From positions 1 to 10,858 of the forward strand of contig JAPLKQ010000033.1 in assembly GCA_026387995.1 (NCBI GenBank): a stretch of 10,858 bases of DNA. Reading direction: 5' to 3'. Shown one piece after another: positions 1 through 10,858 of this stretch. This stretch comes from Bacillota bacterium. GTDB lineage: Bacteria; Bacillota_I; Bacilli_A; RFN20; CAG-826. The stretch's first letter is position 1; each line of letters starts with the position of its first letter. Under the pieces are notes generated by a model. The model ran no database searches, had not been told where the DNA came from, and worked only from the letters and a program-made list of their open reading frames with translations. The position numbers were made by a program, and so were the translations under genes.

Positions 1-522
1 ACTCATACAGGCTTTTCTTCTGTCGAAGTTATGCTATATATCGACCTAAATAAACTGAATGCCAACGCTTATCTTTACAAAATCACTTCCGAAGGCTACG
101 AATATTGGGACACGGCGGCTGATAAATTATGGGTTGACGGAAGTTATGGCCGCCCCTCAAATCCGATAACATTAACTGGCAAACGAAAATTCCTTGAGCC
201 TCAAGAAGGCGATTATTACCCAATGAGTTACGACGTAACCTATTTGATCAACATAGAGTACATGGACTCGCTCGAATCAGCGATTATTTATGAATATGAC
301 TCTTCCGACGCTCTCATTGGTACAGTTACGGTTTCAACCGCTGCCGACATTTCAAGCATCACTATCGATGCACTAACAAGTTACGTTAACATTGAGCAAA
401 GATATAAAACTGGCACTGATGAATACAGTGAACGGACCGCCATCAATCGAGATGATACATTTGATTTCCGATTCAGCGATGCTTACGGTGTTATTGGCGC
501 ACACTACTGGCACTTTATTTAA
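1..522 (+). CDS. 3' end of an unrecognised beta-rich protein (5' partial)
   Basis: The frame is open from the first base of the window to a TAA at 520-522, so at least 173 residues of the C-terminal part are present and the true start lies outside. An ATG at 31 has no ribosome site in front of it and is internal. The sequence is rich in Tyr, Thr, Ser and Asp with alternating hydrophobic residues (for example LINIEYMDSLESAIIYEYD), which suggests beta strands. There are no membrane segments and no cysteines in the visible part, which would suit an exported or surface protein, but the N-terminus is missing so this is inference. I do not recognise the family. No clear terminator follows; the next gene has its own promoter. 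Confidence 0.7.
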   Translation, partial: THTGFSSVEVMLYIDLNKLNANAYLYKITSEGYEYWDTAADKLWVDGSYGRPSNPITLTGKRKFLEPQEGDYYPMSYDVTYLINIEYMDSLESAIIYEYDSSDALIGTVTVSTAADISSITIDALTSYVNIEQRYKTGTDEYSERTAINRDDTFDFRFSDAYGVIGAHYWHFI

Positions 523-634
523 TAGAACTTAAGTCGATTCCACACGTTGGAAGAAAGTTTGCTTAAGGTCATTCAAAATTTTACAAACAGCCGAAACTCG
601 ATAATCCATATGAAAACAGCGAAGGCAGATATTT

Positions 635-663
635 TTGACAACTCGGAATCAATCGAGTATATT
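635..663 (+). promoter_or_regulatory. Consensus sigma-A-like promoter for the membrane protein gene at 704
   Basis: A perfect -35 TTGACA (635-640) is separated by 17 bases from a -10 TATATT (658-663). Transcription would start near 670 and give a leader of about 35 nt carrying the ribosome site. This rules out the longer reading frame that begins inside the -35 box. Bases 523-634 hold nothing else I can name. Confidence 0.75.
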
Positions 664-703
664 GAAATTAATAAAAGAAAACAATTTCGAAAGGAGTTGC
701 TTT

Positions 704-1192
704 ATGTCCAAAAAAATACTCTATGCCCTACCGCAACTTGTTTTAGGAATCATGATCTTCTTTTCGCTAATGATTGTCATTCAACTATTTCTATTTCCTT
801 TCACGCTTTCCCAATATGTGTATTGTATTTTAGTTTTATTCCTTTTGTGCCTAGTCATAGCAATGAGGAAATCAAAGTTCTTCTATGTCGGATTTTCTAT
901 CAGCGTTTTCGGGTTTGTCATTCTTTGCCTTTCTATCTATTCCTTGCATACTTTACAACCGTTTTTTGACGCTCCTTCAACGCCAATTAATTTTGACAGC
1001 ACCATCTACCTTTTTTCGGCAATCGAATTTGACAGTGGTTTGCTGTCTGGAGGGATAAGGAGTAACAATCTGATTGGCCCCTTTATGATAATAACTAAAA
1101 TGCTAGACCTTGGTTTTATTATCTTTCTTCCAATGTATCAAATAGTCCATCATGTGAAAGTTTCACCTCATACGTTAAAGAGCAATCATTAA
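704..1192 (+). CDS. Small four-helix membrane protein of unknown function
   Basis: This is a 162-residue protein. The start at 704 is chosen because AAGGAG (691-696) lies 7 nt upstream and a consensus promoter ends at 663; an in-frame ATG at 635 would fall inside that promoter. Four hydrophobic segments are visible, at about residues 5-32, 36-55, 60-82 and 124-148. A polar loop between the third and fourth contains PFFDAPSTPINFD. The N-terminus (MSKK) and C-terminus (HVKVSPHTLKSNH) are basic, consistent with both ends in the cytoplasm. There is no recognisable catalytic motif. It stands alone, followed by the hairpin at 1232-1270 and recombination-site repeat copy 1. Family unknown. Confidence 0.75.
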   Translation: MSKKILYALPQLVLGIMIFFSLMIVIQLFLFPFTLSQYVYCILVLFLLCLVIAMRKSKFFYVGFSISVFGFVILCLSIYSLHTLQPFFDAPSTPINFDSTIYLFSAIEFDSGLLSGGIRSNNLIGPFMIITKMLDLGFIIFLPMYQIVHHVKVSPHTLKSNH

Positions 1193-1231
1193 ATTTGAAA
1201 ATAAATTAACGATACAATATTGATACAAATA

Positions 1232-1270
1232 ATGAAGAATAAAAAACATAAAATTATGTTTTTTCTTCAT
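1232..1270. terminator. Hairpin inside repeat copy 1, possible terminator of the 704-1192 gene
   Basis: The arms ATGAAG/CTTCAT and AAAAAACATAA/TTATGTTTTTT form a long AT-rich stem with a small bulge, starting 40 nt after the stop of the membrane protein gene. The T-run lies in the 3' arm rather than after a GC stem, so it is not a classic terminator. The equivalent hairpin in repeat copy 2 suggests it belongs to the repeat and may only double as a terminator. Confidence 0.4.
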
Positions 1271-1326
1271 CCCACTGTCAAGTCTTTTTCGGAATGGCTA
1301 TTAATTATATAATAATTACGCGAGCG

Positions 1327-1354
1327 ACGGTCAAAGCCCCACCGTTCCGACCAT
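1327..1354. other. 28-bp tyrosine-recombinase-type crossover site, left (11-6-11)
   Basis: The left arm ACGGTCAAAGC, centre CCCACC and right arm GTTCCGACCAT make 28 bp with the two arms inverted. In the matching right-hand site, 8 of 11 arm positions are symmetric and the other three differ only by purine transitions. The 11-6-11 spacing is that of Xer/dif sites and many integrase core sites. The sequence itself is not the usual Bacillota dif. It lies 27 bp from the end of a recombinase remnant. Confidence 0.6.
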
Positions 1355-1397
1355 TACTTACTACGTAAGTAATGTAACCACTAGTTCTTGGTTACAT
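1353..1397. repeat. Two back-to-back dyads between the left core and the recombinase remnant
   Basis: ATTACTTAC (1353-1361) and GTAAGTAAT (1365-1373) form a perfect 9-bp inverted repeat with a 3-base loop that starts in the last bases of the core site. ATGTAACCA (1372-1380) and TGGTTACAT (1389-1397) form a second perfect 9-bp inverted repeat spanning the recombinase stop codon. They could be recombinase-binding arms or a terminator-like structure for the minus-strand operon. Confidence 0.6.
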
Positions 1398-1626
1398 CAA
1401 ACTTACTTAAATATCTGACGACAATATCATTCAATTTAATCATGGCGTCATCTTTCTCGTTTTGAGTGGCATGGAGGTACACACCTTCCGTGACACTTTT
1501 TGTTTTATGCCCCATTAATTGATTGATCGTTTGCGTGCTGACTATTTTGCTATAAAAAACAAGGCAAACGAACGGGGGGGAATAATTGTGTAACCAAAAA
1601 GCAATCGGTTCTTTGCTAAAAATCAA
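1381..1626 (-). pseudogene. C-terminal remnant of a tyrosine recombinase/integrase
   Basis: The last part of this frame carries the C-terminal signature of phage-type tyrosine recombinases: INQLMGHKTKSVTEGVYLHAT. It has the GH motif (H40 of the open frame) and the nucleophile tyrosine ten residues later (Y50), followed by a short charged tail. The upstream catalytic residues (first Arg, Lys, HxxR) and the whole N-terminal binding domain are absent. An R-S-F-A-L stretch typical of the HxLRxTFA motif appears only in another frame, near a run of seven C bases (minus strand, about 1574-1580), so frameshift decay is likely. There is no ribosome site in front, and the upstream gene ends 32 bp away. 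It is probably non-functional. Its position next to a crossover site supports an integrated element. Confidence 0.7.
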
Positions 1627-1658
1627 ACCTACGTTCCATCGGGATTGGAGAAGCCCAG

Positions 1659-2692
1659 TTACAAATTTGCGAAATCTATATAAGACAAGATTTTGTCCCC
1701 AACGGTTTTTTCAGCTTCATAATAGAGTTTTGAACCATAAAAGCAGACATTTGCTACACGTTCATCTATTGTAAAAAATGCACTGAGAGTGCCATTCTCA
1801 TCATTGTATACGAATACGCTGAAAATAGATTTTTTTATCGAAGTGGTTAATTCCGGAGTTCTCAAAATGAATATGCCAATTTCTTGGAAACGATATGCGG
1901 CATAGAGTAAAGAAGAGCCGAACTTTTCAATCGCCTTGAATGTTTCTGTCAGCCTTGTATCAACATTCCGACGTTCTAAATAATAGGAATTATCAAGTGG
2001 AAAATTTGACTCGAACTAAATAGATCTTGAGACTCACCGTTCTTGTAGACGTATTCATTATTAGTGCAAAGATAGATGTCACCATTAACTTTATGAATGA
2101 TGTTGCGAATCCCCAAATAAAGATTATCAAAATATTCTGTGGATGCCGGTGTATCGGAGACGCCACCACTGTCGTATAGATATTTTGATAAAGAATACTG
2201 CGATTCGCTACTCTCTTGAAATGTCAGATAAAACGAAGAGTCGTATGCATCCAAATAAAAGTTTGTATTCATTCCATAGTCAAAATGCTCACTTAAAACG
2301 GTTTCTTGATTACCTAAAAGAGAGACTCTATACAAATTGCACAAATAAGAACTTTCAGAATTAAAATTCACGACAAAATAAAAGTACCCGTCAAGTTCAA
2401 AAACGCTTTGTGCATTGTCCACTTGGTTAATGACCCCAGGATATTCCTTAAAAAATAACAAGACTTCACTTGCATAGACCTTCAGTTCAGTCACACTATC
2501 GATTGTTTTAAGCGAATATTGGTGGGTTTCAGAAATGTCGATCAGAATTTCGCTATTCTCTTTTTCATGAACATTGAGCGAAATCGGCGTTGTATTTTCA
2601 ACAATGGTTTTCAAAGAATCCTTTGCGCTTGAACAACCGGTTAAAACCAAGATACTTATCGCGATGAGTAGATTAAGGTTTTTCGATTTCAT
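1659..2692 (-). pseudogene. Secreted lipoprotein, frameshifted (about 344 residues if repaired)
   Basis: The 5' part (2692 to 1976) encodes 238 residues with a lipoprotein signal: basic MKSKN start, hydrophobic core, lipobox LTGC with C20 as the modified cysteine, then SSAKDS. The ribosome site GGAGG (2699-2703) is 6 nt upstream. The frame ends early in LIIPII-stop. A second frame from about 2005 to the TAA at 1659 continues with NFPLDNSYYLERRNVDTRL and 100 further residues without any start of its own. Adding one base in the A3T4 run at 2001-2007 joins both frames into one protein. Repeated stretches such as DGYFYFVVNF, NGDIYLCTNNEYVY and SFYLTFQE resemble blades of a beta-propeller. The function is unknown. 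It follows the secreted 466-residue protein by 20 nt, probably in one operon. Confidence 0.7.
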
Positions 2693-2712
2693 AATCTTCC
2701 TCCAAAATCATT

Positions 2713-4113
2713 TTAATATATATTTCCATATCCGGCTTCGCTTGTAACAAAATTAATAAAACCTTTCACCATGTTTTTTCTAACTGCATATGATGGCATA
2801 TGATATTCACCTTCTAAAGAATACGGATGGCATAGAAAATAATCTCTCGGGTCGATTGAAGGAAGGTCAAGAGAAGCGTCTGCCAGATTGGTCGGTGATA
2901 ATAAACAAGCATTGGCCGTTGTAAATCTAAATGCATTAATTCCGGTAGTATTTAGATCCGTTGCAACAAATGCTCCTGCTCCTGTATCGATTGGATCCGC
3001 AACATATTGATAAGCCACATTCTTTATAAAACTCCTGTACCTAAATGGTTCACTGTCAACACAACTTTCATAGTAAGCGGCTAGGGCACCACTAACTAAA
3101 TTGCATCTATTACTATTAGCATCGTATGTCGTTAAATAGCCTCTCCCAATATTATAGGCATCAATGTCAGCATAAAAATCTGCTCTTGAAAAGTCAGTGT
3201 TGGAATCCAAAACTTGGTTTTCAAAATTAGTAACTAAGCCACCCGTAAGTCCAAAATCATAGCACGCACTATGCAAATCCCCTATGAAAGCTATAAGATT
3301 TTGCAGTTGATAACCAATGCTTAAATTACCCCCTGGATATTGCTCGAGTCCATCAAGTGAACAAAACATGTGGATCAAGTCAATTCCATAAGCATTATTC
3401 ACAGGATCTTCCAACATATTCCTCATCTTAAATCTTTCCAAAACCGTGCCATATCTTGGATTAATATTTGCGGTAATTGAAACAAAAGATGCAAAATACG
3501 ATTTCATATCAACTAATGAATTATTAATACATGTATATTTTATGCTCTCTTTTGCATTAACAAAATCGACAAATCCTAAGTCAAATTGCCCACAAATGAG
3601 GCTAAAAGCAGTTCCGATTAAACTCTCGAAAATTGTACCTGAATCTCGATAACCAAGATCAAGATTTCTTATATAACCCAACACTAGATTATCTACATCG
3701 CTGGAAGTTATATTATTTATAGAAATATAGGACGCTGCATAACTTTCAAGTTGCCTAATCATAAAAATCAAGGAATCTACCTTAGTACTCAGGCTTCGAA
3801 CTTCAACAACTTCATTAACAAACTCATTCGCTTGATAATAATAAAGATGATGCGTAGTAATAAAGGGCCACCAGCCAGTAGTATATGTTATCGTATGAAC
3901 AACTGCACCAGTGGCTTCAACAAATGGAACCATTTCTTTAGATATATAAATCGTTGTAGCTTTATTTACAGGCTTTGTAACTATAAAGTCGCCTATTGGC
4001 AAATTCGAGACTTGCGCGTGAACGATATGCCCGTTATCCGCGTTTGTGTTTAATGTTCCCAGAGTACCTAGGCCGACCAAAAGCACTCCTAAAATTGCCA
4101 TCATTTTTTTCAT
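2713..4113 (-). CDS. Secreted protein of unknown family (466 residues, eight cysteines)
   Basis: The start at 4113 has AAAGGAA (4121-4127) 7 nt upstream and a consensus promoter at 4166-4194. Residues 1-33 look like a Sec signal peptide: KK, hydrophobic core AILGVLLVGLGTLGTL, likely cleavage after VHA. The mature part has no membrane segment. Distinct stretches are GWWPF (80-84), D-L-I-H-M-F-C-S-L-D-G (245-255), GDLHSACYDFGLTGG (278-292) and ADIDAYNIG (315-323). Together these histidines, aspartates and glycines look like a conserved enzymatic or binding core, but I cannot name a family. Cysteines sit at 174, 195, 251, 284, 337, 351, 403 and 428, an even number that would allow disulfides outside the cell. 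It is the first gene of a minus-strand operon with the lipoprotein, so the pair may act together at the surface. Confidence 0.75.
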   Translation of the reverse strand: MKKMMAILGVLLVGLGTLGTLNTNADNGHIVHAQVSNLPIGDFIVTKPVNKATTIYISKEMVPFVEATGAVVHTITYTTGWWPFITTHHLYYYQANEFVNEVVEVRSLSTKVDSLIFMIRQLESYAASYISINNITSSDVDNLVLGYIRNLDLGYRDSGTIFESLIGTAFSLICGQFDLGFVDFVNAKESIKYTCINNSLVDMKSYFASFVSITANINPRYGTVLERFKMRNMLEDPVNNAYGIDLIHMFCSLDGLEQYPGGNLSIGYQLQNLIAFIGDLHSACYDFGLTGGLVTNFENQVLDSNTDFSRADFYADIDAYNIGRGYLTTYDANSNRCNLVSGALAAYYESCVDSEPFRYRSFIKNVAYQYVADPIDTGAGAFVATDLNTTGINAFRFTTANACLLSPTNLADASLDLPSIDPRDYFLCHPYSLEGEYHMPSYAVRKNMVKGFINFVTSEAGYGNIY

Positions 4114-4165
4114 TTTGTTTTTCCTTTATGCTTTATCTTTGATCAAAAATAAATAGATATTTTTT

Positions 4166-4194
4166 ATTTTAATGTTGTTTAACATAGTTGTCAA
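4166..4194 (-). promoter_or_regulatory. Promoter of the module operon with a dyad between -35 and -10
   Basis: On the minus strand TTGACA (4194-4189), 17 bases and TAAAAT (4171-4166) form a strong sigma-A-like promoter for the secreted-protein operon, about 52 nt upstream of the start codon. The spacer contains the inverted repeat ATGTT-gttt-AACAT (4172-4185). A protein bound there would block polymerase, so a repressor site is likely but unproven. Confidence 0.65.
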
Positions 4195-4221
4195 GGTAGT
4201 AGAAGGTTTTGCAGCCAGACT

Positions 4222-4352
4222 GATACATTATTGATACAGTAAATGAATAACTATGTTATTCATACGTTTTCGAAGTATTTTTGGATGGCGAAACTAATTA
4301 TAACAGTATAATTAAGCACTCGATGGTCAAAGCCCCACCGTTCCGACCATTA
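4222..4352. repeat. Structured intergenic repeat, copy 2
   Basis: The order of parts is the same as in 1211-1356. Two GATACA boxes 11 bp apart (4222-4227, 4233-4238) are followed after 4 nt by a perfect 9-bp hairpin ATGAATAAC/GTTATTCAT (4243-4251, 4255-4263). A perfect 8-bp AT dyad TAATTATA/TATAATTA (4295-4302, 4307-4314) comes next, then 6 nt, then the 32-bp conserved stretch (4321-4352). The GATACA block is 16/17 identical to copy 1, and the stretch between hairpin and dyad is only loosely similar. Orientation is the same as copy 1. Confidence 0.75.
4323..4350. other. 28-bp tyrosine-recombinase-type crossover site, right (11-6-11)
   Basis: The arms ATGGTCAAAGC and GTTCCGACCAT surround the centre CCCACC. 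The outer six bases of the arms are perfectly inverted (ATGGTC/GACCAT). It differs from the left site at one base (T4324 against C1328). It is followed within 10 bp by a terminator hairpin, and by the shift to higher-GC, chromosome-like genes. Confidence 0.6.
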
Positions 4353-4359
4353 GAATAGT

Positions 4360-4385
4360 AAAGGCCTCGATTTGAGGCCTTTTTT
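4360..4385. terminator. Rho-independent terminator, GGCCTC type
   Basis: AAAGGCCTC and GAGGCCTTT pair around GATTT, followed by further T bases on the plus strand. It serves the plus strand best, but no plus-strand gene ends here. On the minus strand it lies 37 nt after the stop of the 4422-5009 gene and can end that transcript. A near-identical stem occurs at 9091-9117, and a related one at 5107-5134. Confidence 0.8.
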
Positions 4386-4421
4386 CTATGAGGGAACCGA
4401 GGATGGTCAGAGACTAGCTAT

Positions 4422-5009
4422 TTATTGAGATTTGGGCTTAAGAAGAGGATCGGGAGCGGATTCGTATTCCGCGATGTACAGCCGGTAAAGTTTTTGCCGC
4501 TCCAAAACGACATTTCGGCGGTTCAAAAAAAACGTCTCAACCGATGACCAAACAAAGCCCCAGCTGACTAATAGTGAAATTTCTTGAAAGAAATAGGTCA
4601 CATAAGAAATACTCCGGAAAAAGCCCGATAACAGCAAAGCGAAGATACCGCCGCCAAGCAAAATAAGGCAATAAATATTCAGACGTTTGATTTCCAATTC
4701 TTCGAAATAGATCATTTTGACGATTTCGCCATTGACGGCTTTTTTGATAGATGCCGGATTGGGGTCGGGGGAACCGTCCGGGAAAGCGACTCGGACGGTG
4801 ATCGCCTGGGTCATCGGCAGATATTTGGTTTCTGTCAGCATATGTTCGATGGCGTCTTGGATTCGGACTCGGCTCAGGGTCCCAGGGTAAACCTCAAGAT
4901 CGATGTGGCCCGCTTCCGAATATGCGGAAAAGGCCCTAACCTTTTTCATCAGTTGTTTGGCTGCTTTTATTTCTTTCAAATCCTCAGGATTGAGTTGTAT
5001 CGTTTTCAT
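4422..5009 (-). CDS. Two-helix membrane protein of unknown function
   Basis: This 195-residue protein starts at 5009, with AAAGGA (5018-5023) 8 nt upstream. Residues 1-108 are soluble, charged and mixed alpha/beta, with no recognised motif. Two hydrophobic segments follow at about 111-131 (IYCLILLGGGIFALLLSGFF) and 134-159, with only a short turn between them. The last 35 residues are polar and basic, then end in APDPLLKPKSQ. Both soluble ends should face the cytoplasm. The gene is monocistronic, between its own extended -10 promoter and the terminator at 4360-4385. I do not recognise the family. Confidence 0.75.
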   Translation of the reverse strand: MKTIQLNPEDLKEIKAAKQLMKKVRAFSAYSEAGHIDLEVYPGTLSRVRIQDAIEHMLTETKYLPMTQAITVRVAFPDGSPDPNPASIKKAVNGEIVKMIYFEELEIKRLNIYCLILLGGGIFALLLSGFFRSISYVTYFFQEISLLVSWGFVWSSVETFFLNRRNVVLERQKLYRLYIAEYESAPDPLLKPKSQ

Positions 5010-5053
5010 GATGGTTATCCTTTTCTTTTACATTTATTGTCTCTTTCTATCTT

Positions 5054-5062
5054 ATTCTATCA
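5054..5062 (-). promoter_or_regulatory. Extended -10 promoter for the 5009-4422 gene
   Basis: The minus strand reads TGATAGAAT, a TGn-extended -10 with one mismatch to TATAAT. A TTGAAA occurs only 13 bases upstream (5078-5073), too close for a normal -35, so the extended -10 would carry the promoter. Confidence 0.4.
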
Positions 5063-5106
5063 TGCTTTCACTTTTCAAAAGGCGCGCTGCTCGATCGTGA
5101 AAATGC

Positions 5107-5134
5107 AAAAGGCCCCACGATGAGGCCCTTTTTT
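5107..5134 (-). terminator. Terminator of the SDR oxidoreductase gene
   Basis: AAAAGGCC and GGCC-C-TTTTTT pair with a short inner CA/TG extension. The hairpin lies about 28 nt beyond the SDR stop codon on the minus strand and has T-rich flanks on both strands. It is a variant of the GGCCTC stem used at 4360 and 9091. Confidence 0.65.
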
Positions 5135-5161
5135 ACTAATCAGTAGAAAGAAGGTTTGGTA

Positions 5162-6085
5162 TTAAACTATAAAGGGGACTTTAGTCAGTTGTTCAGACAA
5201 CGTCCATAACTTTTTGGCGTCAGCTTCAGAGTGGGATTCTTCGCTAGATTCGACCACCACCGGTTGTTTTTTCGTTTTCTTATCCTTACTCGGCCCATAG
5301 TATTGTCCATTGAGCGCCGTTTCATCTAGGCAAGCCCGGATTTCCGGTAAGGCGCCTTCATAAGGAGTCGAAGCGACTTTGGAGAACATCCAGAAGAGGG
5401 GACGAACCAGAATATTCTTCGTCATATAACGGCCAAGCTCGGTATTGGCAACCCCAGGATGGGCCGCCATTACGCGTACATCAAGATGTTTGGCCTCTAC
5501 CCTTCGGGCCAGTTCATACGTGAATAGAAGGTTAGAAAGTTTGCTTCTCCCATAGGCGCCGATCTTTGAATATTTACTATGTTCGAAGAGGTAGTCGTCA
5601 AAATCCATTTTTCCCATTTTGTGGGCCATGCTGCTCACGGTGACGATTCGGGAATGGGGTGTCTGTGCAATGAGGTCGAAGAGTTGAGCCGTCAAGGCAA
5701 AATGCCCTAAATGGTTGACGCCATTCTGTTTCTCGAATCCATCTTCGGTCTTTCCGTAAGGGACCGTCATGATGCCCGCATTGTTCAGCAAGATGTCCAA
5801 GCGTGAATACTTGGCTTTAAAGGCTTGAACGAAGGCGTGGATGGACGCCAAACTGCCCAAATCCAGTTTCATGATATCGACGGTGGCATCTTTGGTTTCC
5901 GCCAGTATTTTGTTTTTGGCTTCCGTGGCGCGTTCCAGTGAACGGCAGGCCAGAATGACCGTGGCGTGTTTTTTGGCAAAAACTTTGGCCGCCTCAAATC
6001 CGAGTCCGGTGTTTCCCCCGGTGACGATGATAACTTTGTCTTTCAATGATTTAATGTTTTCAAGATTCCAAGAGCTGTTTTCCAT
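5162..6085 (-). CDS. Short-chain dehydrogenase/reductase, retinol-dehydrogenase-like
   Basis: This 307-residue protein has a full classical SDR set. The cofactor loop TGGNTGLG is at 22-29, CRS at 47-49 (Arg48 favours NADP(H)), the adenine-contact LDLGS at 74-78, and NNAG at 101-104. Asn124 lies in NGVNHLGHF, the catalytic Ser is in VSSMAH (151/152), and YGRSK (Tyr178, Lys182) is followed by AHPGVANTELGRY. The overall pattern resembles the retinol dehydrogenase / WWOX / protochlorophyllide-reductase branch, which reduces carbonyls or oxidises alcohols of hydrophobic substrates. The actual substrate cannot be told. The C-terminal 40 residues are charged and have a KDKKTKK stretch. The start is supported by GAGG (6091-6094) 5 nt upstream. 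It appears monocistronic. Confidence 0.9.
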   Translation of the reverse strand: MENSSWNLENIKSLKDKVIIVTGGNTGLGFEAAKVFAKKHATVILACRSLERATEAKNKILAETKDATVDIMKLDLGSLASIHAFVQAFKAKYSRLDILLNNAGIMTVPYGKTEDGFEKQNGVNHLGHFALTAQLFDLIAQTPHSRIVTVSSMAHKMGKMDFDDYLFEHSKYSKIGAYGRSKLSNLLFTYELARRVEAKHLDVRVMAAHPGVANTELGRYMTKNILVRPLFWMFSKVASTPYEGALPEIRACLDETALNGQYYGPSKDKKTKKQPVVVESSEESHSEADAKKLWTLSEQLTKVPFIV

Positions 6086-6101
6086 AGAGACCTCGCTTTG
6101 A

Positions 6102-6118
6102 GCACCATTGTGTGGTGC
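6102..6118. promoter_or_regulatory. Dyad in the leader of the SDR gene, likely operator
   Basis: GCACCA (6102-6107) and TGGTGC (6113-6118) form a perfect 6-bp inverted repeat with a 5-base gap. It lies between the predicted transcription start and the ribosome site of the SDR gene. SDR genes are often under TetR/MarR/HxlR-type repressors, and none is encoded next to it here. Confidence 0.45.
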
Positions 6119-6133
6119 GTTTTTACAGTTGTG

Positions 6134-6142
6134 ATTATAGCA
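6134..6142 (-). promoter_or_regulatory. Extended -10 promoter for the SDR gene
   Basis: The minus strand reads TGCTATAAT, a perfect extended -10, about 50 nt upstream of the start codon. No good -35 is seen 16-18 bases further up. The same nine bases serve as promoter of the ChrB-like gene at 9591-9599. Confidence 0.65.
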
Positions 6143-6173
6143 TGTGTGTTTCTACTCTTACGGCGTCGATGCA

Positions 6174-6199
6174 CTTTTTAATCGTAAAAAGCATACTAT
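6174..6199 (+). promoter_or_regulatory. Weak candidate promoter with upstream dyad for the 6228 gene
   Basis: CTTTTTA (6174-6180) and TAAAAAG (6185-6191) form a perfect 7-bp inverted repeat immediately before TACTAT (6194-6199), a possible -10. No -35 is convincing. The dyad could be a regulator site or only AT-rich chance. Confidence 0.3.
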
Positions 6200-6227
6200 G
6201 ATGGTGAGACGTCATAGGAGGCCCATC

Positions 6228-6746
6228 ATGAATTTTGAAGAATATTTGGCCACGGAAAACATTAAATTTAAAGAAACGCAGACGAGAGATAAAGAAATCG
6301 TGGATTACCTTTCGATGAAAAAAGCTTTTGAATATCTCGAAAAGCTCCGCTACGAGGATGTACCGTCCATCTATCTTGGGTGCGCCAGCGTCAATTTATT
6401 GAACACCTATGTCAAGGAAGTCAAAAAGAGCATCAGTTATCAATTTAAAGATCATCTCCGGGAAATCATCCGTGGGATTTTAGCCATACACTCTCCGGGA
6501 ATCACGCTAGATTACCAGCCGAGCGACGAAGGAAACGTCCTAATCATTAAAATCTTTTCCGTCCAGTTCAGTTTCCATGATATCAAACTTTGGGCCGAAC
6601 TCGAGCAGGCACTGGGCGATTCCCAAATCCATGAGCACATCCAATGGGACGGAATCCGCAAGCAAAAATGCGCGATGACCGTCTTCGCCTCCGCTTTTAA
6701 CAAGGATTTTATGCCCAATGTTTTCTTAGAAGGCCGACATTCATAA
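6228..6746 (+). CDS. Hypothetical cytosolic protein, 172 residues
   Basis: The start at 6228 is chosen because AGGAGG (6216-6221) lies 6 nt upstream; a longer in-frame version from 6144 would begin upstream of the likely promoter and has no ribosome site. The protein has no signal peptide or membrane segment. Its first half is charged and helical (DYLSMKKAFEYLEKL, LNTYVKEVKKSISYQFKDHL). Its second half has a beta-like stretch (VLIIKIFSVQFSFHDIK) followed by WAELEQAL. I recognise no family. It is convergent with the CBS gene, with a 14-bp gap containing only a weak AATAA/TTATT hairpin. Confidence 0.75.
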   Translation: MNFEEYLATENIKFKETQTRDKEIVDYLSMKKAFEYLEKLRYEDVPSIYLGCASVNLLNTYVKEVKKSISYQFKDHLREIIRGILAIHSPGITLDYQPSDEGNVLIIKIFSVQFSFHDIKLWAELEQALGDSQIHEHIQWDGIRKQKCAMTVFASAFNKDFMPNVFLEGRHS

Positions 6747-6760
6747 CGCCGGAATAAGCT

Positions 6761-7480
6761 TTATTTTTCTTCGTTTACGATTAAATCCCATTGGGTAATC
6801 ATGCCGATGATGGTTTCGTTGGGAAGGCCGTTTTCCGTGATAAAGGCAACGACCAAATTTTGCGGTTTTTCAAAACTGGCGATAAAATCCCGCTCGATAT
6901 CCGAGAGCAAGACGTCCCTTTTGACGAATTCAAAAGCTTCGTTTAAGTGCTTATCAAGGGCTAAAAACGGCTTTAAGAACTCAAAAGTCGTGTTGCTATT
7001 GAAATCCGCTTCGCGGTTGAATGAAAAAATGGTTAACAGGACGTCGCCGGAGAAAACCCCGATGAGCTCTTTTCCGGAATACACGGGAACATAAGAAAAA
7101 TTCTTTTCGGCCATCACCGCGATGGTCTCGTGAATGTTGGCTTTGATGTCGACTTTGTAAATACTGCCTTCCTTGACGCAGACGTCGTAGGCCCTTTGGG
7201 GACTTGCAATATAGGAAAGAATAAGTCTAAGCGTGTCAATGGACGCGGCGGCGACCTCGTAGTAACCCGACGTATTCGCCTCATGCGCCTCAAGATTACG
7301 GAGTTTCCTTAGGACATCGATCGTCCGTTCGAATTTTCGTAAGCGTTTGTCTTTGACGGCGCTTTGCCGAAAATTGTCCATGAAGTATTCACTTTCGGAA
7401 ACGCCTAAGTGGTCCTCGATTTGCTTGAACAACTCGAAAAATGTTTTGTTGACGTCATTGACTTGGTTTTGCGGTTCCAT
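6761..7480 (-). CDS. CBS-pair regulatory protein with HEPN/DUF4145-like N-terminal part
   Basis: The protein has 239 residues. The start at 7480 is fixed by AAGGAG (7488-7493) 7 nt upstream; the open frame runs on to 7660, but that stretch reads as promoter region. Residues 1-95 are helical and contain LRKLRNLEAHE, whose R61-x4-H66 spacing matches the R-x4-6-H motif of HEPN-type domains. Residues 96-239 look like two CBS repeats: SIYKVDIKANIHETIAVMAEKNFSYVPV with GKELIGVFSGDVLL, then the degenerate LNEAFEFVKRDVLLSD with ETIIGMITQWDLI. CBS pairs usually bind adenine nucleotides and switch an attached domain. If the N-terminal part is a nuclease, this would be a nucleotide-controlled RNase, but that is inference. 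Confidence 0.8.
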   Translation of the reverse strand: MEPQNQVNDVNKTFFELFKQIEDHLGVSESEYFMDNFRQSAVKDKRLRKFERTIDVLRKLRNLEAHEANTSGYYEVAAASIDTLRLILSYIASPQRAYDVCVKEGSIYKVDIKANIHETIAVMAEKNFSYVPVYSGKELIGVFSGDVLLTIFSFNREADFNSNTTFEFLKPFLALDKHLNEAFEFVKRDVLLSDIERDFIASFEKPQNLVVAFITENGLPNETIIGMITQWDLIVNEEK

Positions 7481-7627
7481 ATTTTTTCTCCTTAGAAAGG
7501 AAGGAAATGAATGATTAACACGATTTTTTCGAATAATGCCACACGGGTTTTCTCTATTCCTATTTATGCATATCCGCGCGCAATCATCAAATAGAAGATG
7601 CAATGTGTGTAAAAGCAGACAAATACA

Positions 7628-7641
7628 TATAATGGTATAAT
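7628..7641 (+). promoter_or_regulatory. Promoter of the Rieske-bacterioferritin cluster, two overlapping -10 boxes
   Basis: Two TATAAT hexamers lie 8 bp apart (7628-7633 and 7636-7641). The second is preceded by TGG, making an extended -10. No clear -35 is visible. This stretch is not an inverted repeat, so it does not fit a Fur or PerR box. The 230-bp divergent region 7481-7710 holds no other clear feature. Confidence 0.6.
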
Positions 7642-7710
7642 AAACACAGTTAGCCACCAAAGAACTTAATCATGATTCCGTTTTTTCAATCTCACAAGAA
7701 AGGAGGTCAT

Positions 7711-8040
7711 ATGAATTACATAAAAATCGCTGAAAAAGCCGAACTCACCAGCGGAGGTAAAAAGAAAGTATCCGTCGGAGGAAAAGATATCCTTTTGACG
7801 AATATCGAAGGCACTTATTACGCGGTCGAGAACACCTGCCCGCACATGGGCGGATCGCTCGTCGAAGGCAAACTCGATGGCCACCATATCGTCTGTCCAC
7901 GTCATGGCTCCAGCTTTGACGTCACCACCGGAAAACTATTTTCGCCAGGCAAGCTGCTCTTTATCAAAGTCAAACCCCGCGACCTGTTGAGTTTCCCCGT
8001 AAAGATCGAAGGAAACGACATTCTCGTCGGGATTGAATAG
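7711..8040 (+). CDS. Rieske [2Fe-2S] ferredoxin-like protein
   Basis: The 109-residue protein has the Rieske cluster motif C43-P-H45 and C62-P-R-H65, with 16 residues between the halves, so two Cys and two His bind a [2Fe-2S] centre. Gly replaces the second cysteine found in disulfide-bearing, high-potential Rieske proteins (CPHMGG rather than CTHLGC), which points to a soluble low-potential ferredoxin such as those feeding oxygenases or acting as nitrite-reductase small subunits. No membrane helix or signal is present, so it is cytosolic. The start at 7711 has AAAGGAGG (7699-7706) just upstream; a longer frame from 7672 only extends into the leader. It leads a probable operon with bacterioferritin, 59 nt downstream, for which it might supply or accept electrons (inference). 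Confidence 0.92.
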   Translation: MNYIKIAEKAELTSGGKKKVSVGGKDILLTNIEGTYYAVENTCPHMGGSLVEGKLDGHHIVCPRHGSSFDVTTGKLFSPGKLLFIKVKPRDLLSFPVKIEGNDILVGIE

Positions 8041-8099
8041 TCGCCTAGACATTAAGTTATCATTAAAAATACGAACACATCTTGAAAGGAGTTGTTCTT

Positions 8100-8564
8100 A
8101 TGAAAGGTAATACCGCATTAATCGCCACGTTGAATGCCTTACTGTCCGATGAGCTGAGCGCGACCAACCAATACATCGTCCACTCCGAGATGAGCGCCAA
8201 CTGGGGTTACACCAAGCTCCATGAATACTTTGAAAAGCGCGCCATCGACGAGATGAAACACGCCGAAAAGCTGATTGGCCGCATCTTATTCTTAGAAGGC
8301 CTCCCCATGGTCAGCAAACTCCACGACATCAAAATCGGGAGCGACCTCAATAAACAACTAGACAGCGACCATAAGTCTGAAGAAGGCGCCATCGCTTCTT
8401 ATAACGCCGCCATTGTCCTCGCCGGCGAAGTCAAAGATTTCGCGACCCGCGAGATTCTCGAAAAGATTTTAAATGATGAAGACCGCCACATCGACGAAAT
8501 CGAAGAATTACAAGATCAGATTTCACAGATGGGCTTGCCGCTTTTCCTGACCACACAACGTTAA
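8100..8564 (+). CDS. bfr: Bacterioferritin
   Basis: The 154-residue length is typical. Every ferroxidase ligand known from E. coli Bfr is present at the same number: E18, E51, H54, E94, E127 and H130. Met52, the ligand of the haem between subunits, is also present. The protein should form a 24-subunit cytosolic shell that oxidises ferrous iron with oxygen or peroxide and stores it as ferric mineral. The start at 8100 has AAAGGAG (8085-8091) 8 nt upstream. It follows the Rieske gene by 59 nt and precedes a rubrerythrin-like gene by 34 nt, with no terminator between. No associated [2Fe-2S] Bfd, the usual iron-release partner, is seen; the Rieske protein may substitute (inference). Confidence 0.93.
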   Translation: MKGNTALIATLNALLSDELSATNQYIVHSEMSANWGYTKLHEYFEKRAIDEMKHAEKLIGRILFLEGLPMVSKLHDIKIGSDLNKQLDSDHKSEEGAIASYNAAIVLAGEVKDFATREILEKILNDEDRHIDEIEELQDQISQMGLPLFLTTQR

Positions 8565-8598
8565 TAAGGATGCCGATCGACAGAAACGGAGCATAGCC

Positions 8599-9084
8599 AT
8601 GAATGATATGAAATTTGCTCTCCAGATGGAACACGATGGAGAACGTTACTACCGCGAACAAGCATCCCTGATAAAAAACAAAGGCATCCGCAGCGTTTGC
8701 CTGCTTTTAGCGGACGAAGAAAAACACCATGGCGAACTCCTCGAAAAGAAATTCGGTTCTAAATTAGGAACATTGTCCGACACCGACGCGCTAGCGCAGG
8801 CCAAAAACGTCTTCCACGGACTCAGCGCCATCAAAGTCGACGGCGTGGAAAAAGCCAGCCAGCTTGATTTTTACCGCATCGCTTCGGAAAAGGAAAAAGA
8901 AAGCATTGAGCTCTACACGAAATATCTTGCTCACGCGAAAAGCGATGAAGAAAAACAACTCTTTGAGTTCTTGATCAGGCAAGAAACCCACCACTACGAG
9001 ATTCTCGAAGCGTTCGTCGCGTTCGTCAAACGGCCAGAAGACTGGGTCGAAAACGCGGAATTCGGAATCCGCGAAGATTATTAA
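8599..9084 (+). CDS. Rubrerythrin-like / ferritin-like diiron protein without rubredoxin domain
   Basis: The 161-residue protein is a four-helix bundle with two diiron half-sites. The first is E11 (in MEHDGERYY) with the ExxH in ADEEKHH (E40/E41, H43/H44). The second is an E in ASEKEKESIELY (E99 or E101) with E129xxH132 in RQETHHYEIL. This is the ferritin-like family related to the rubrerythrin N-terminal domain; there are no CxxC pairs, so no rubredoxin domain. Members typically reduce peroxide or handle iron. The start at 8599 has ACGGAG (8586-8591) 7 nt upstream. It is the last gene of the cluster, ending 6 nt before a strong terminator. The exact reaction and electron donor are unknown; the Rieske protein is a possible donor. 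Confidence 0.85.
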   Translation: MNDMKFALQMEHDGERYYREQASLIKNKGIRSVCLLLADEEKHHGELLEKKFGSKLGTLSDTDALAQAKNVFHGLSAIKVDGVEKASQLDFYRIASEKEKESIELYTKYLAHAKSDEEKQLFEFLIRQETHHYEILEAFVAFVKRPEDWVENAEFGIREDY

Positions 9085-9090
9085 ATAGCG

Positions 9091-9117
9091 AAAAGGCCTC
9101 ATCGCGAGGCCTTTTTT
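9091..9117. terminator. Bidirectional terminator between the diiron and ChrB-like genes
   Basis: AAAAGGCCTC and GAGGCCTTTT pair perfectly around ATCGC, followed by more T on the plus strand; the minus strand also ends in TTTT. It separates the convergent genes ending at 9084 and 9124. Confidence 0.9.
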
Positions 9118-9123
9118 CATGTT

Positions 9124-9552
9124 TTATTTTGGGTTCTCTTGTTTTTGAAAATACGCATAGAGCGCGTCATAAAGGTAAAATTCTTTTTCCAGCGTCTCGT
9201 GGTCGTTCTTGGTGATGAGCCCGTAACCTGTCGCAAGAATTTCAAGCGAGAAGGATAATGGGTTTTCGTTTTCCCGGTCGGTATCCGCTAAGCGGACGAT
9301 TTCCTGGATTTTACGAAGGGCCGGGTCTTTTCCAAGATTATATTTTTTCATGATGGCGTCAAAGGAACATTCATCCCCATGGTGGCCAAGCTCGACACCC
9401 TTCATGTCAAATGGCGTTCCGTCTTTGATCGTCGCGGGATCGGTGTTTCGCGGGACAAAAACGAATTGCGCGTCTTTATCGACAAAGTTTTTGATCAGCC
9501 AAGGACAGGCGACGCGGTCGACGTGGACTTTTTCTCTGGTTACCCATTTCAT
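9124..9552 (-). CDS. ChrB C-terminal-domain protein (chromate-resistance type)
   Basis: The 142-residue protein matches the C-terminal domain of chromate-resistance protein ChrB from its first residues: MKWVTREKVHVDRVACPWLI, then FVFVPRN, TPFDMKGVELGHHGDECSFD, DPALRKIQEIVRLADTD and a final YDALYAYF. Full ChrB is about twice as long; only this domain is present, as is common for stand-alone members. In ChrB it is linked to chromate sensing or reduction, but the role of stand-alone forms is unclear and chromate itself is not proven. I choose ATG at 9552, with AAGAAG 8 nt upstream; a GTG at 9561 would add three residues but has poor ribosome spacing. No ChrA transporter lies nearby. The extended -10 promoter is at 9591-9599. 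Confidence 0.85.
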   Translation of the reverse strand: MKWVTREKVHVDRVACPWLIKNFVDKDAQFVFVPRNTDPATIKDGTPFDMKGVELGHHGDECSFDAIMKKYNLGKDPALRKIQEIVRLADTDRENENPLSFSLEILATGYGLITKNDHETLEKEFYLYDALYAYFQKQENPK

Positions 9553-9590
9553 GAAGGTCACTTCTTTCTTTGGAACGGTATGTTGATTGA

Positions 9591-9599
9591 ATTATAGCA
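9591..9599 (-). promoter_or_regulatory. Extended -10 promoter for the ChrB-like gene
   Basis: The minus strand reads TGCTATAAT, identical to the SDR promoter at 6134-6142. A TTGACG (9622-9617) lies 20 bases upstream, too far for an ideal -35. Confidence 0.65.
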
Positions 9600-9644
9600 C
9601 AGCGCAACGAGGATATCGTCAAATTTAGCCACTTCATTTTGGGC

Positions 9645-9671
9645 AAATAAAAAAGTCGCCGAAGCGACTTT
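9645..9671 (-). terminator. Terminator of the cold shock gene
   Basis: On the minus strand AAAGTCGC-TTCG-GCGACTTT forms a perfect 8-bp stem with a stable TTCG loop, followed by a T-run (TTTTTTATTT in all, sharing its first three T with the stem). It begins 18 nt after the cold shock stop codon. Confidence 0.92.
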
Positions 9672-9689
9672 AGTTTGCGGTTTTGCTAA

Positions 9690-9884
9690 TTAAATCTTGC
9701 GAAGATTTGAAGCGCGTGGGCCGCGTGGGGATTCTTCGACGTCAAATTCCACTTTTTCGCCGATAGAGGCGATTTTGGGTGTATCTTGAATCGCAGAATA
9801 ATGGAAGAAGACGTCTTTGCCGTCTTCAGTCGTGACGAAGCCGAAGCCTTTGTCTTTGTTGAAATTCTTTACAGTGCCTTTCAT
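9690..9884 (-). CDS. csp: Cold shock protein, CspA family
   Basis: The 64-residue protein is a single cold-shock OB-fold domain. It carries RNP1 (KGFGFV, 12-17) and RNP2 (VFFHYS, 25-30), the aromatic surface that binds single-stranded RNA and DNA, and the usual ending in GPRASNLRKI. Such proteins act as RNA chaperones that melt structure in mRNA. Length and sequence are fully typical. An AAAGG stands about 13 nt before the start, a little far. The region upstream is long and AT-rich with an inverted repeat at 9913-9928, consistent with a structured leader as is usual for csp genes. It is monocistronic, with its own terminator. Confidence 0.95.
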   Translation of the reverse strand: MKGTVKNFNKDKGFGFVTTEDGKDVFFHYSAIQDTPKIASIGEKVEFDVEESPRGPRASNLRKI

Positions 9885-9912
9885 TTGTGAACCATATACC
9901 TTTCTGAATGTT

Positions 9913-9928
9913 TTAAGTCTTTACTTAA
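9913..9928. promoter_or_regulatory. Dyad in the predicted cold shock leader
   Basis: TTAAGT (9913-9918) and ACTTAA (9923-9928) are inverted around CTTT, 29 bases upstream of the csp start. It could fold in the leader RNA. I found no convincing csp promoter further up. Confidence 0.35.
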
Positions 9929-10059
9929 GTAGGCCACAATTCATTTGCCTACAACATAAAGATACCACTTCAATACAAAAATTCATACATTTATAATTTA
10001 ATGTTTTTGAAAACCGGTTATTTTTTTCACTATTTTTCAATTCTTTTAGACGATAAAAA

Positions 10060-10072
10060 TGAAGCGCTTACA
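10060..10072. promoter_or_regulatory. cre-like (CcpA) site upstream of leucine dehydrogenase
   Basis: TGAAGCGCTTACA resembles catabolite-responsive elements (TGWNANCGNTNWCA), but it is one base short in the left half; the right half AGCGCTTACA matches fully. It lies about 50 bp before the -10 box. Carbon control of branched-chain amino acid breakdown would make sense, but the missing base weakens the call. Confidence 0.35.
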
Positions 10073-10124
10073 TTATATTTGGTTTTTTTATCAAAATGAG
10101 GGGAAACACAATCAAAAATCATAG

Positions 10125-10130
10125 TATAAT
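10125..10130 (+). promoter_or_regulatory. -10 box of the leucine dehydrogenase gene
   Basis: A perfect TATAAT lies 35 bases upstream of the start codon. No TTGACA-like -35 stands 16-18 bases before it, so activation by a regulator is possible. The rest of the 281-bp divergent region 9885-10165 is AT-rich, with an AACCGGTT palindrome at 10012-10019. Confidence 0.5.
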
Positions 10131-10165
10131 AAAAACAAGGTCCACCATAACCAGAGGAGAAAAAA

Positions 10166-10753
10166 ATGAGTGATTTCAAAGTGTTCGAATACATGACCAA
10201 ACACAACTATGAACAAGTCGTCCACTTCTATGACAAGACCACGGGATTAAAAGGTATCACTGTCATCCACAACACGACATTGGGACCCGCCCTCGGCGGC
10301 ACCCGCATCTGGAATTACGAATCCGAAGACGAAGCCTTAATGGATTGCCTGCGCTTAGCGCGTGGGATGACCTACAAAGCCGCAGCGGCCGGGTTGAACC
10401 TCGGTGGCGGAAAAACCGTCATCATCGGCGATCCCAGCAAAGTTAAATCCGAAGCTTTCTTCCGTGCGTTAGGCCGTTATGTCCAATCCTTGGGTGGCCG
10501 TTACATTACCGCCGAAGACGTCAATACCTCTACCAGCGACATGGCTTATATCCATATGGAAACCGATTACGTGGTTGGCCTCGAAGGCAAATCCGGGAAC
10601 CCTTCCCCGATGACTGCGCTCGGTGCTTTTTATGGTATCAAAGCTTCTTTAAAATACAAATTCAATGATGAAGATATTTCGAAGTATACTTTCGCAGTTC
10701 AAGGCGCCGGTCAAACCGGTTATTTCCTCATCAATCACTTTAGATTCATTTAA
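10166..10753 (+). pseudogene. bcd: Leucine dehydrogenase, truncated in the NAD-binding domain
   Basis: The first about 190 residues closely follow Leu/Val/Phe dehydrogenases of Bacillus type: [13 protein letters not shown] (37-49), [18 protein letters not shown] (K71 and K83, the substrate and catalytic lysines), ITAEDVN with D118, and [10 protein letters not shown] (144-153). The NAD-binding fold begins with [10 protein letters not shown] (176-185) and then breaks off in HFRFI-stop. Family members are about 350-370 residues, so roughly 165 residues, including most of the Rossmann fold, are missing. No plus-strand frame downstream resumes the family sequence. The product would deaminate leucine or valine to the oxo-acid in an intact form; here it cannot be active. 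AGAGGAG (10153-10159) supports the start. Cause: insertion, rearrangement or assembly join at about 10735-10742. Confidence 0.85.
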
Positions 10754-10858
10754 ATCTTGAAACCTACCATTTTGATCATAGGTACCGTCGTTTCTATTGA
10801 GGAATATGTTTAGACTGTTGTACTTCTTAAACAGACTTAAAATGAAAGTATCATATGT
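10649..10858 (-). CDS. Partial opposite-strand open frame past the dehydrogenase break
   Basis: The minus strand is open from the window edge (10858) to a TAA at 10649. The first about 40 codons (for example [20 protein letters not shown]) have ordinary, AT-rich coding character and start within a gene entering from the right. The remaining codons are antisense to leucine dehydrogenase and are probably not genuine coding. I do not recognise the protein. It looks like the interior of another gene joined to the broken dehydrogenase. Confidence 0.45.

Follow-up and report, generated by a model that had tools for sequence, protein, structure and literature searches.

What kind of recombination gave rise to two almost identical 28-bp sites lying 3 kb apart in a Bacillota genome, and what do these sites bound? 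The question was addressed in the window, by which we mean the whole stretch of 10,858 nt that was analyzed (GCA_026387995.1, contig JAPLKQ010000033.1, positions 1-10,858 of the forward strand, base 1 being the contig end). It belongs to a fragmented metagenome-assembled genome (MAG) of 1.15 Mb in 216 contigs, which is 82.9% complete. The initial annotation had taken the sites for the ends of an integrated module that uses an unfamiliar site. Our analysis suggests, with a probability of roughly 0.85, that the window is the right part of a genomic island placed in the 3′ end of a tRNA-Pro(CGG) gene by phage-type tyrosine integrases, and that it holds two tandem elements, here called A and B. 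Most likely, the 3 kb between the sites is a decayed part of integrated mobile DNA whose kind is ordinary and well known, and a seemingly unfamiliar recombination site becomes one of a familiar kind.

The two sites and the tRNA-Pro(CGG) 3′ end

The 28-mers (1327-1354 and 4323-4350) are repeated in direct orientation, differ at one base (27/28 identical) and have an 11-6-11 layout, as the initial annotation had described them. The arms ATGGTCAAAGC and ATGGTCGGAAC agree at 8/11 positions. With strands counted separately, the arm pattern matched the window four times, at each site on both strands; the mean in shuffled sequence was 0.14, and 0/200 shuffles reached 4. The pair lies within the largest direct-repeat family (59 nt, 81%) among the 20 of 27 families shown for the window. 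The 28-mers are the terminal part of a longer common block (~1211-1356 and 4222-4352), for which the features are as follows.

1211-1326, + strand: right-end block of element A, from gapped similarity to 4222-4322, folds and GATACA positions; GATACA at 1211 and 1222, hairpin at 1232-1271, AT palindrome at ~1300-1317
1327-1356, + strand: attachment (att) core, left copy; 1338-1356 is the putative displaced tRNA-Pro(CGG) 3′ end; proposed junction of elements A and B
4222-4322, + strand: right-end block of element B, from gapped similarity, folds and GATACA positions; GATACA at 4222 and 4233, hairpin at ~4243-4263, AT palindrome at ~4295-4314
4323-4352, + strand: att core, right copy (attR); 4334-4352 is the putative displaced tRNA-Pro(CGG) 3′ end; proposed island-chromosome junction

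Gapped similarity between the blocks extends back to 1211 and 4222. The part upstream of the 28-mer scored 66, compared with a maximum of 63 in 1000 shuffles (0/1000 reached 66) and of 55 among 895 other window segments, while past CCATTA, 2 bases beyond the 28-mer, the copies show little similarity. Both copies have the same order of parts, namely two GATACA repeats 11 bp apart, a hairpin, an AT palindrome and the core. The hairpins stand at the same place with different sequences, and the RNA folding z-scores of the blocks were -5.7 and -4.6. The core is nearly identical between the copies and the upstream block is diverged. GATACA occurs five times in the window, and four of these are the two block pairs, which may represent arm-type sites of an integrase. 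The pair had 58 matches in IMG/VR, which were taken as chance because no core-like sequence was found within 220 bp, the best there having 11/28 mismatches.

The origin of the core was indicated by CCCACCGTTCCGACCATTA (19 nt; 1338-1356 and 4334-4352), which is identical in both copies and corresponds to the 3′ strands of the T-stem and the acceptor stem, followed by A73, CCA and a trailer. Of the tRNA-Pro(CGG) 3′ ends of 17 relatives, one differed from it at 1 position, three at 2 positions and six at 3, whereas each of the 33 tRNAs of the own assembly differed at no fewer than 5 positions. When the tRNA end of one relative (G019) was used as the query, 1 mismatch was found at the window sites and 6 elsewhere in the window. 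Outside the own contig, the best match among 120 loci compared was a tRNA 3′ end of genome G014 (8/28 mismatches, ungapped), and local alignment to this tRNA scored 28 and 32 at the two sites versus at most 19 in 481 other segments. ARAGORN called the G014 tRNA as Ala(tgc), in a sequence that has two N; we read it as a tRNA-Pro, contrary to ARAGORN, because its anticodon loop was read as CGG. No tRNA body was found upstream of either copy and no tRNA in the window, thus both copies would be displaced tRNA fragments, as islands of tyrosine integrases usually leave them. Judged from the sequence, the 3′ part of the core is the tRNA-Pro(CGG) 3′ end, and tRNA 3′ ends are among the classic integrase targets, so that the description of the site as unfamiliar has to be given up. 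An attB at the rpsI 3′ end had also been considered from a short K-A-P-x-F resemblance; it was dropped, untested, once the tRNA match appeared.

The tRNA gene was then located in relatives. The gene directly before the G014 tRNA-Pro is presumably polC, whose open frames are mostly 1,370-1,620 codons. The 3′ part of polC was present in 34/34 other genomes searched, of which 30 gave a locus that could be read and 4 gave none. An ARAGORN-called tRNA-Pro(CGG) adjoins polC in 16/30 loci. With G014 added, it stands beside polC in 17/19 same-family loci and 0/11 other-family loci, with the tRNA on the opposite strand in G017; these 17 relatives are all other species. Neither tRNA-Pro(CGG) nor the polC 3′ part was found in the own, incomplete assembly. 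Because both of these usual neighbours are absent, the intact tRNA-Pro(CGG) probably lies off the left contig end; their joint absence fits this position and is no proof of it. The reading makes a prediction, namely that an intact tRNA-Pro(CGG) would be found beside polC at the other end of the island, and the 3′ end of this gene in the own species would be expected to resemble CCCACCGTTCCGACCA. In two relatives, the contigs L164 (G010) and L202 (G008) stop within ~1 and 61 bp past tRNA-Pro(CGG), which repeats at an occupied site could explain.

The distribution of the site itself was narrow. A motif occurring throughout the genome, which the initial annotation had named as speaking against its proposal, was looked for and did not appear: with up to 3 mismatches allowed, the own genome has only two copies of the 28-mer, the remaining 57 of 58 relatives had none, and neither had the remaining 278 of the 279 genomes searched across the order. 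An exact search of IMG/VR with a 24-base form and a search of GTDB r220 contigs with a relaxed 19-base form each gave 0 matches.

Composition and contents of the integrated DNA

The GC content is 0.370 at 1-1354, 0.355 at 1355-4350 and 0.454 at 4351-9900. Six sampled own contigs, used as the baseline, ranged from 0.43 to 0.48; the value between the sites was lower than in all 173 comparable segments of these contigs, and that left of 1354 was matched by 1/211. The composition change noted earlier at the right-hand site was recovered (0.355 to 0.454). The step at 4350, together with AT-rich DNA leftward, marks 4323-4352 as the junction of island and chromosome and 1327-1356 as an internal junction. 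The proposal that the sites are the ends of one integrated module thus stands in part. They resemble crossover sites and seem to bound integrated DNA, but only the right one abuts the chromosome; the left one would be internal because AT-rich DNA runs on to the left contig end. The genes and other features on both sides are listed below.

1-1354, strand not assigned: right part of element A, from GC and open reading frames (ORFs); its left end is outside the contig
1-522, + strand: C-terminal part of a protein, element A (ORF)
704-1192, + strand: membrane protein, element A (ORF)
1381-1626, - strand: tyrosine integrase remnant, C-terminal end only (PHROG, tblastn, Pfam)
1659-2692, - strand: lipoprotein gene, broken into two frames (ORFs 1976-2692 and 1659-1865)
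2713-4113, - strand: secreted protein of 466 aa, PF27189 according to the protein database, with relatives in a protein search
4360-4386, + strand: hairpin followed by a T run, a terminator (read from sequence; fold)
5162-6085, - strand: short-chain dehydrogenase of the chromosomal flank (Pfam adh_short, 4.8e-31)

A secreted protein, a lipoprotein and a tyrosine-recombinase remnant had been named as the cargo, and all three were recognized again. The remnant matched two PHROG integrase families (E=3.9e-7 and 6.1e-7), its best tblastn match to phage integrases had E=3e-3 (36% over 44 residues), and it contains GVYLHAT, which we take to be the tyrosine motif. It had no match in IMG/VR and one weak match in plasmids (E=0.3). 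Its stop codon starts 24 bp right of the left core repeat; integrase genes commonly sit beside att sites. The lipoprotein was identified by eye from its N-terminal LTGCSS, and its second frame (1659-1865) stays open to ~1985. The coding content of 1355-4350 amounts to the integrase remnant, the broken lipoprotein gene and the secreted protein, with no whole gene for integration or transfer.

The secreted protein has six relatives besides itself (8000 best candidates scored), with conserved IDLIHMFC and GDLH motifs, and matches in 9/279 genomes of the order, the own one included. No family scored above the cut-off in Pfam, PHROG or NCBIfam, despite the PF27189 listing, and no match was found in phage records or IMG/VR. 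A structure prediction failed to give a usable model (mean predicted local distance difference test score, pLDDT, 36). A 43% identical relative occurs in G042. There, no site-like flanks were seen among the repeats listed (20 of 53 families), the 28-mer search was empty, and similarity of the neighbouring lipoprotein to that of the window was undetectable. No tRNA was found near eight loci of the relatives, within flanks of ~1.5 kb or less. In element A, the membrane protein (704-1189) had no match in IMG/VR, and a protein search gave no more than two relatives, with identities of 84% and 80%. One of them is on a 238-kb contig, where an intact element could be visible.

The chromosome resumes at ~4353, and the terminator at 4360-4386 is plausibly that of the original tRNA gene. 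A dehydrogenase fragment stands right after tRNA-Pro in G014 (L051:1501-1619), in the same orientation as in the window, where the gene is intact. It matched window positions 5362-5464 with 75% DNA identity over 103 nt (E=1.8e-10) and 52% protein identity over 63 residues. Further right, 6761-7480 encodes a CBS-domain protein with a weak match, far below the cut-off, to the anti-phage CBS protein DS11, which probably reflects the common domain only. At 10166-10858, a dehydrogenase gene ends early (NCBIfam Trp_DH_ScyB, 211 bits, below the cut-off of 600). DNA similarity to G014 and G001 stops at ~10735 and AT-rich sequence follows, as at a chimeric contig end or an insertion.

Two proposed tandem elements and competing explanations

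The two displaced ends point the same way and share their right-end anatomy, which suggests that two elements accreted at one tRNA gene, and a near-identical core beside diverged flanks favors two separate elements over a recent duplication. Each integration would restore the tRNA from a copy borne by the element and leave the previous 3′ end beyond the inserted DNA. Element A would then end at 1354 and element B would occupy 1355-4350, both in tandem and followed by the chromosome. The crossover may have taken place within the T-loop/T-stem region. Element B, having no integrase of its own, would be a passenger movable only in trans or within a composite, like a cis-mobilizable element (CIME), or it may be dead.

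Several observations weigh against this interpretation. ATGGTCAAAG, about the first 10 bases of the core, does not fit a tRNA T-arm; we assign it to the element's side of the crossover. In G001, the nearest relative, the tRNA end differs from CCCACCGTTCCGACCATTA at 3 positions, and the remaining seven of the 17 tRNA ends, one of them cut by a contig end, differ at 4-8/19 positions, so the match rests on the closer relatives. The Pfam match of the integrase remnant to Phage_integrase is weak and below the cut-off (E=0.062). No island was found at this place in the relatives read. In the stretches downstream of the tRNA in 16 of them (~0.06-19.8 kb), a second copy of the site was absent when 18 nt were compared with up to 3 mismatches allowed, and a phmmer test with two queries against 267 open stretches, which is a weak test, detected no integrase; this gives no sign that tRNA-Pro(CGG) is a recurrent target. 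When right-flank proteins were compared with such stretches, only the dehydrogenase matched, in G014. Moreover, neither the intact tRNA nor attL nor any intact integrase was observed.

The 28-bp, 11-6-11 layout is also consistent with a module of the pdif type, or like an integrative mobile element exploiting Xer (IMEX), in which host Xer recombinases act on dif-like 28-mers. The own genome does have one full tyrosine recombinase gene, presumably of XerC/CodV type as read from its neighbours trmFO and rpsB. However, 13/58 genomes have a site that differs from the Bacillota dif consensus at no more than 3 positions, with 0 copies in the own incomplete genome, and this site is quite unlike that of the window. 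Identity with dif was rejected because the consensus-like dif of the lineage differs, and the initial annotation was right that the site is not canonical Bacillota dif. In dif, it is the inner arm halves that are inverted, whereas in the window site it is the outer ones, which counts further against Xer. With the tRNA end accounting for the 3′ part of the site and a phage-type integrase remnant present, we regard Xer action as highly improbable. The hairpins, kept in place but not in sequence and with the z-scores given above, would also suit an integron-like cassette array, that is, a gene set with a structured recombination site. Against this, there are only two sites, the remnant matches phage integrases, and each fold is partly a neighbouring hairpin or terminator outside the common block. 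In the own genome, which is incomplete, the Xer-like gene alone matches Phage_integrase at E≤0.1 and no IntI was found; by eye, the sites show no attC R/L boxes. Such an array is the most improbable of the explanations considered.

The stable folds, the upstream TATAAT-like boxes and the terminator that follows the right copy (boxes and terminator read by eye) could also point to a regulatory or small-RNA repeat, or the repeat could be a plain segmental duplication, in either case without a role in recombination. Rfam gave nothing at the sites at a threshold as loose as E≤5, a near-identical core beside strongly diverged flanks would not be expected of a duplication, and both versions leave the tRNA-end match and the composition step unexplained, which makes them scarcely probable. 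An assembly or binning artefact, in which AT-rich DNA from another organism or place was joined at a repeat, deserves mention in a MAG of so many contigs; the right contig end looks odd too, since the similarity to a dehydrogenase gene of two relatives is lost there. But the junction falls exactly at a core that resembles a tRNA 3′ end, as biology predicts, and the same core occurs again 3 kb inside the AT-rich part; we consider an artefact very unlikely. In a bolder version of integration at the tRNA, uncultured Bacilli would harbor a family of very small elements at tRNA-Pro. Its members would have a common right end of ~145 bp, exchange cargo coding for secreted or surface proteins within tandem arrays, and depend for movement on a single intact integrase that acts in trans from another part of the island. 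This is unlikely; if true, the family would be a cassette-like system built on a tRNA site.

Comparison with known systems

The pdif modules of Acinetobacter plasmids consist of small cargo modules flanked by 28-bp 11-6-11 sites. The window resembles them in that its 28-bp 11-6-11 sites bound a small cargo. Unlike in pdif modules, the site appears derived from a tRNA rather than from dif, the contig carries chromosomal genes, and the integrase remnant is of phage type.

According to the Islander description, integration into a tRNA gene restores the gene from the attP of the island and displaces a fragment, and tandem tRNA-island arrays have one fragment and one integrase per member (PMC4383910). 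As in the islands described there, the window has one displaced 3′ tRNA fragment per element in direct orientation and a foreign composition; beside att, where those islands have a tyrosine integrase, it has a remnant of one. It differs from them in that the intact tRNA would be off the contig and only a remnant of the integrase is left, so that the Islander integrase filter would not pass the window as it stands. Fragmented MAGs can in this way hide tRNA islands from tRNA-based finders, with the tRNA on a missing contig and the integrase decayed.

In the literature on CIMEs (PMC5704250), these are decayed elements that retain attL and attR and accrete in tandem with others. Unlike the CIMEs presented there, element B is very small and has no partner integrative and conjugative element (ICE) or integrative and mobilizable element (IME) on the contig of the window, and its mobilization in cis would be hypothetical. 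Like them, it has an att-like core at both ends, no whole gene for integration or transfer, and a tandem neighbour.

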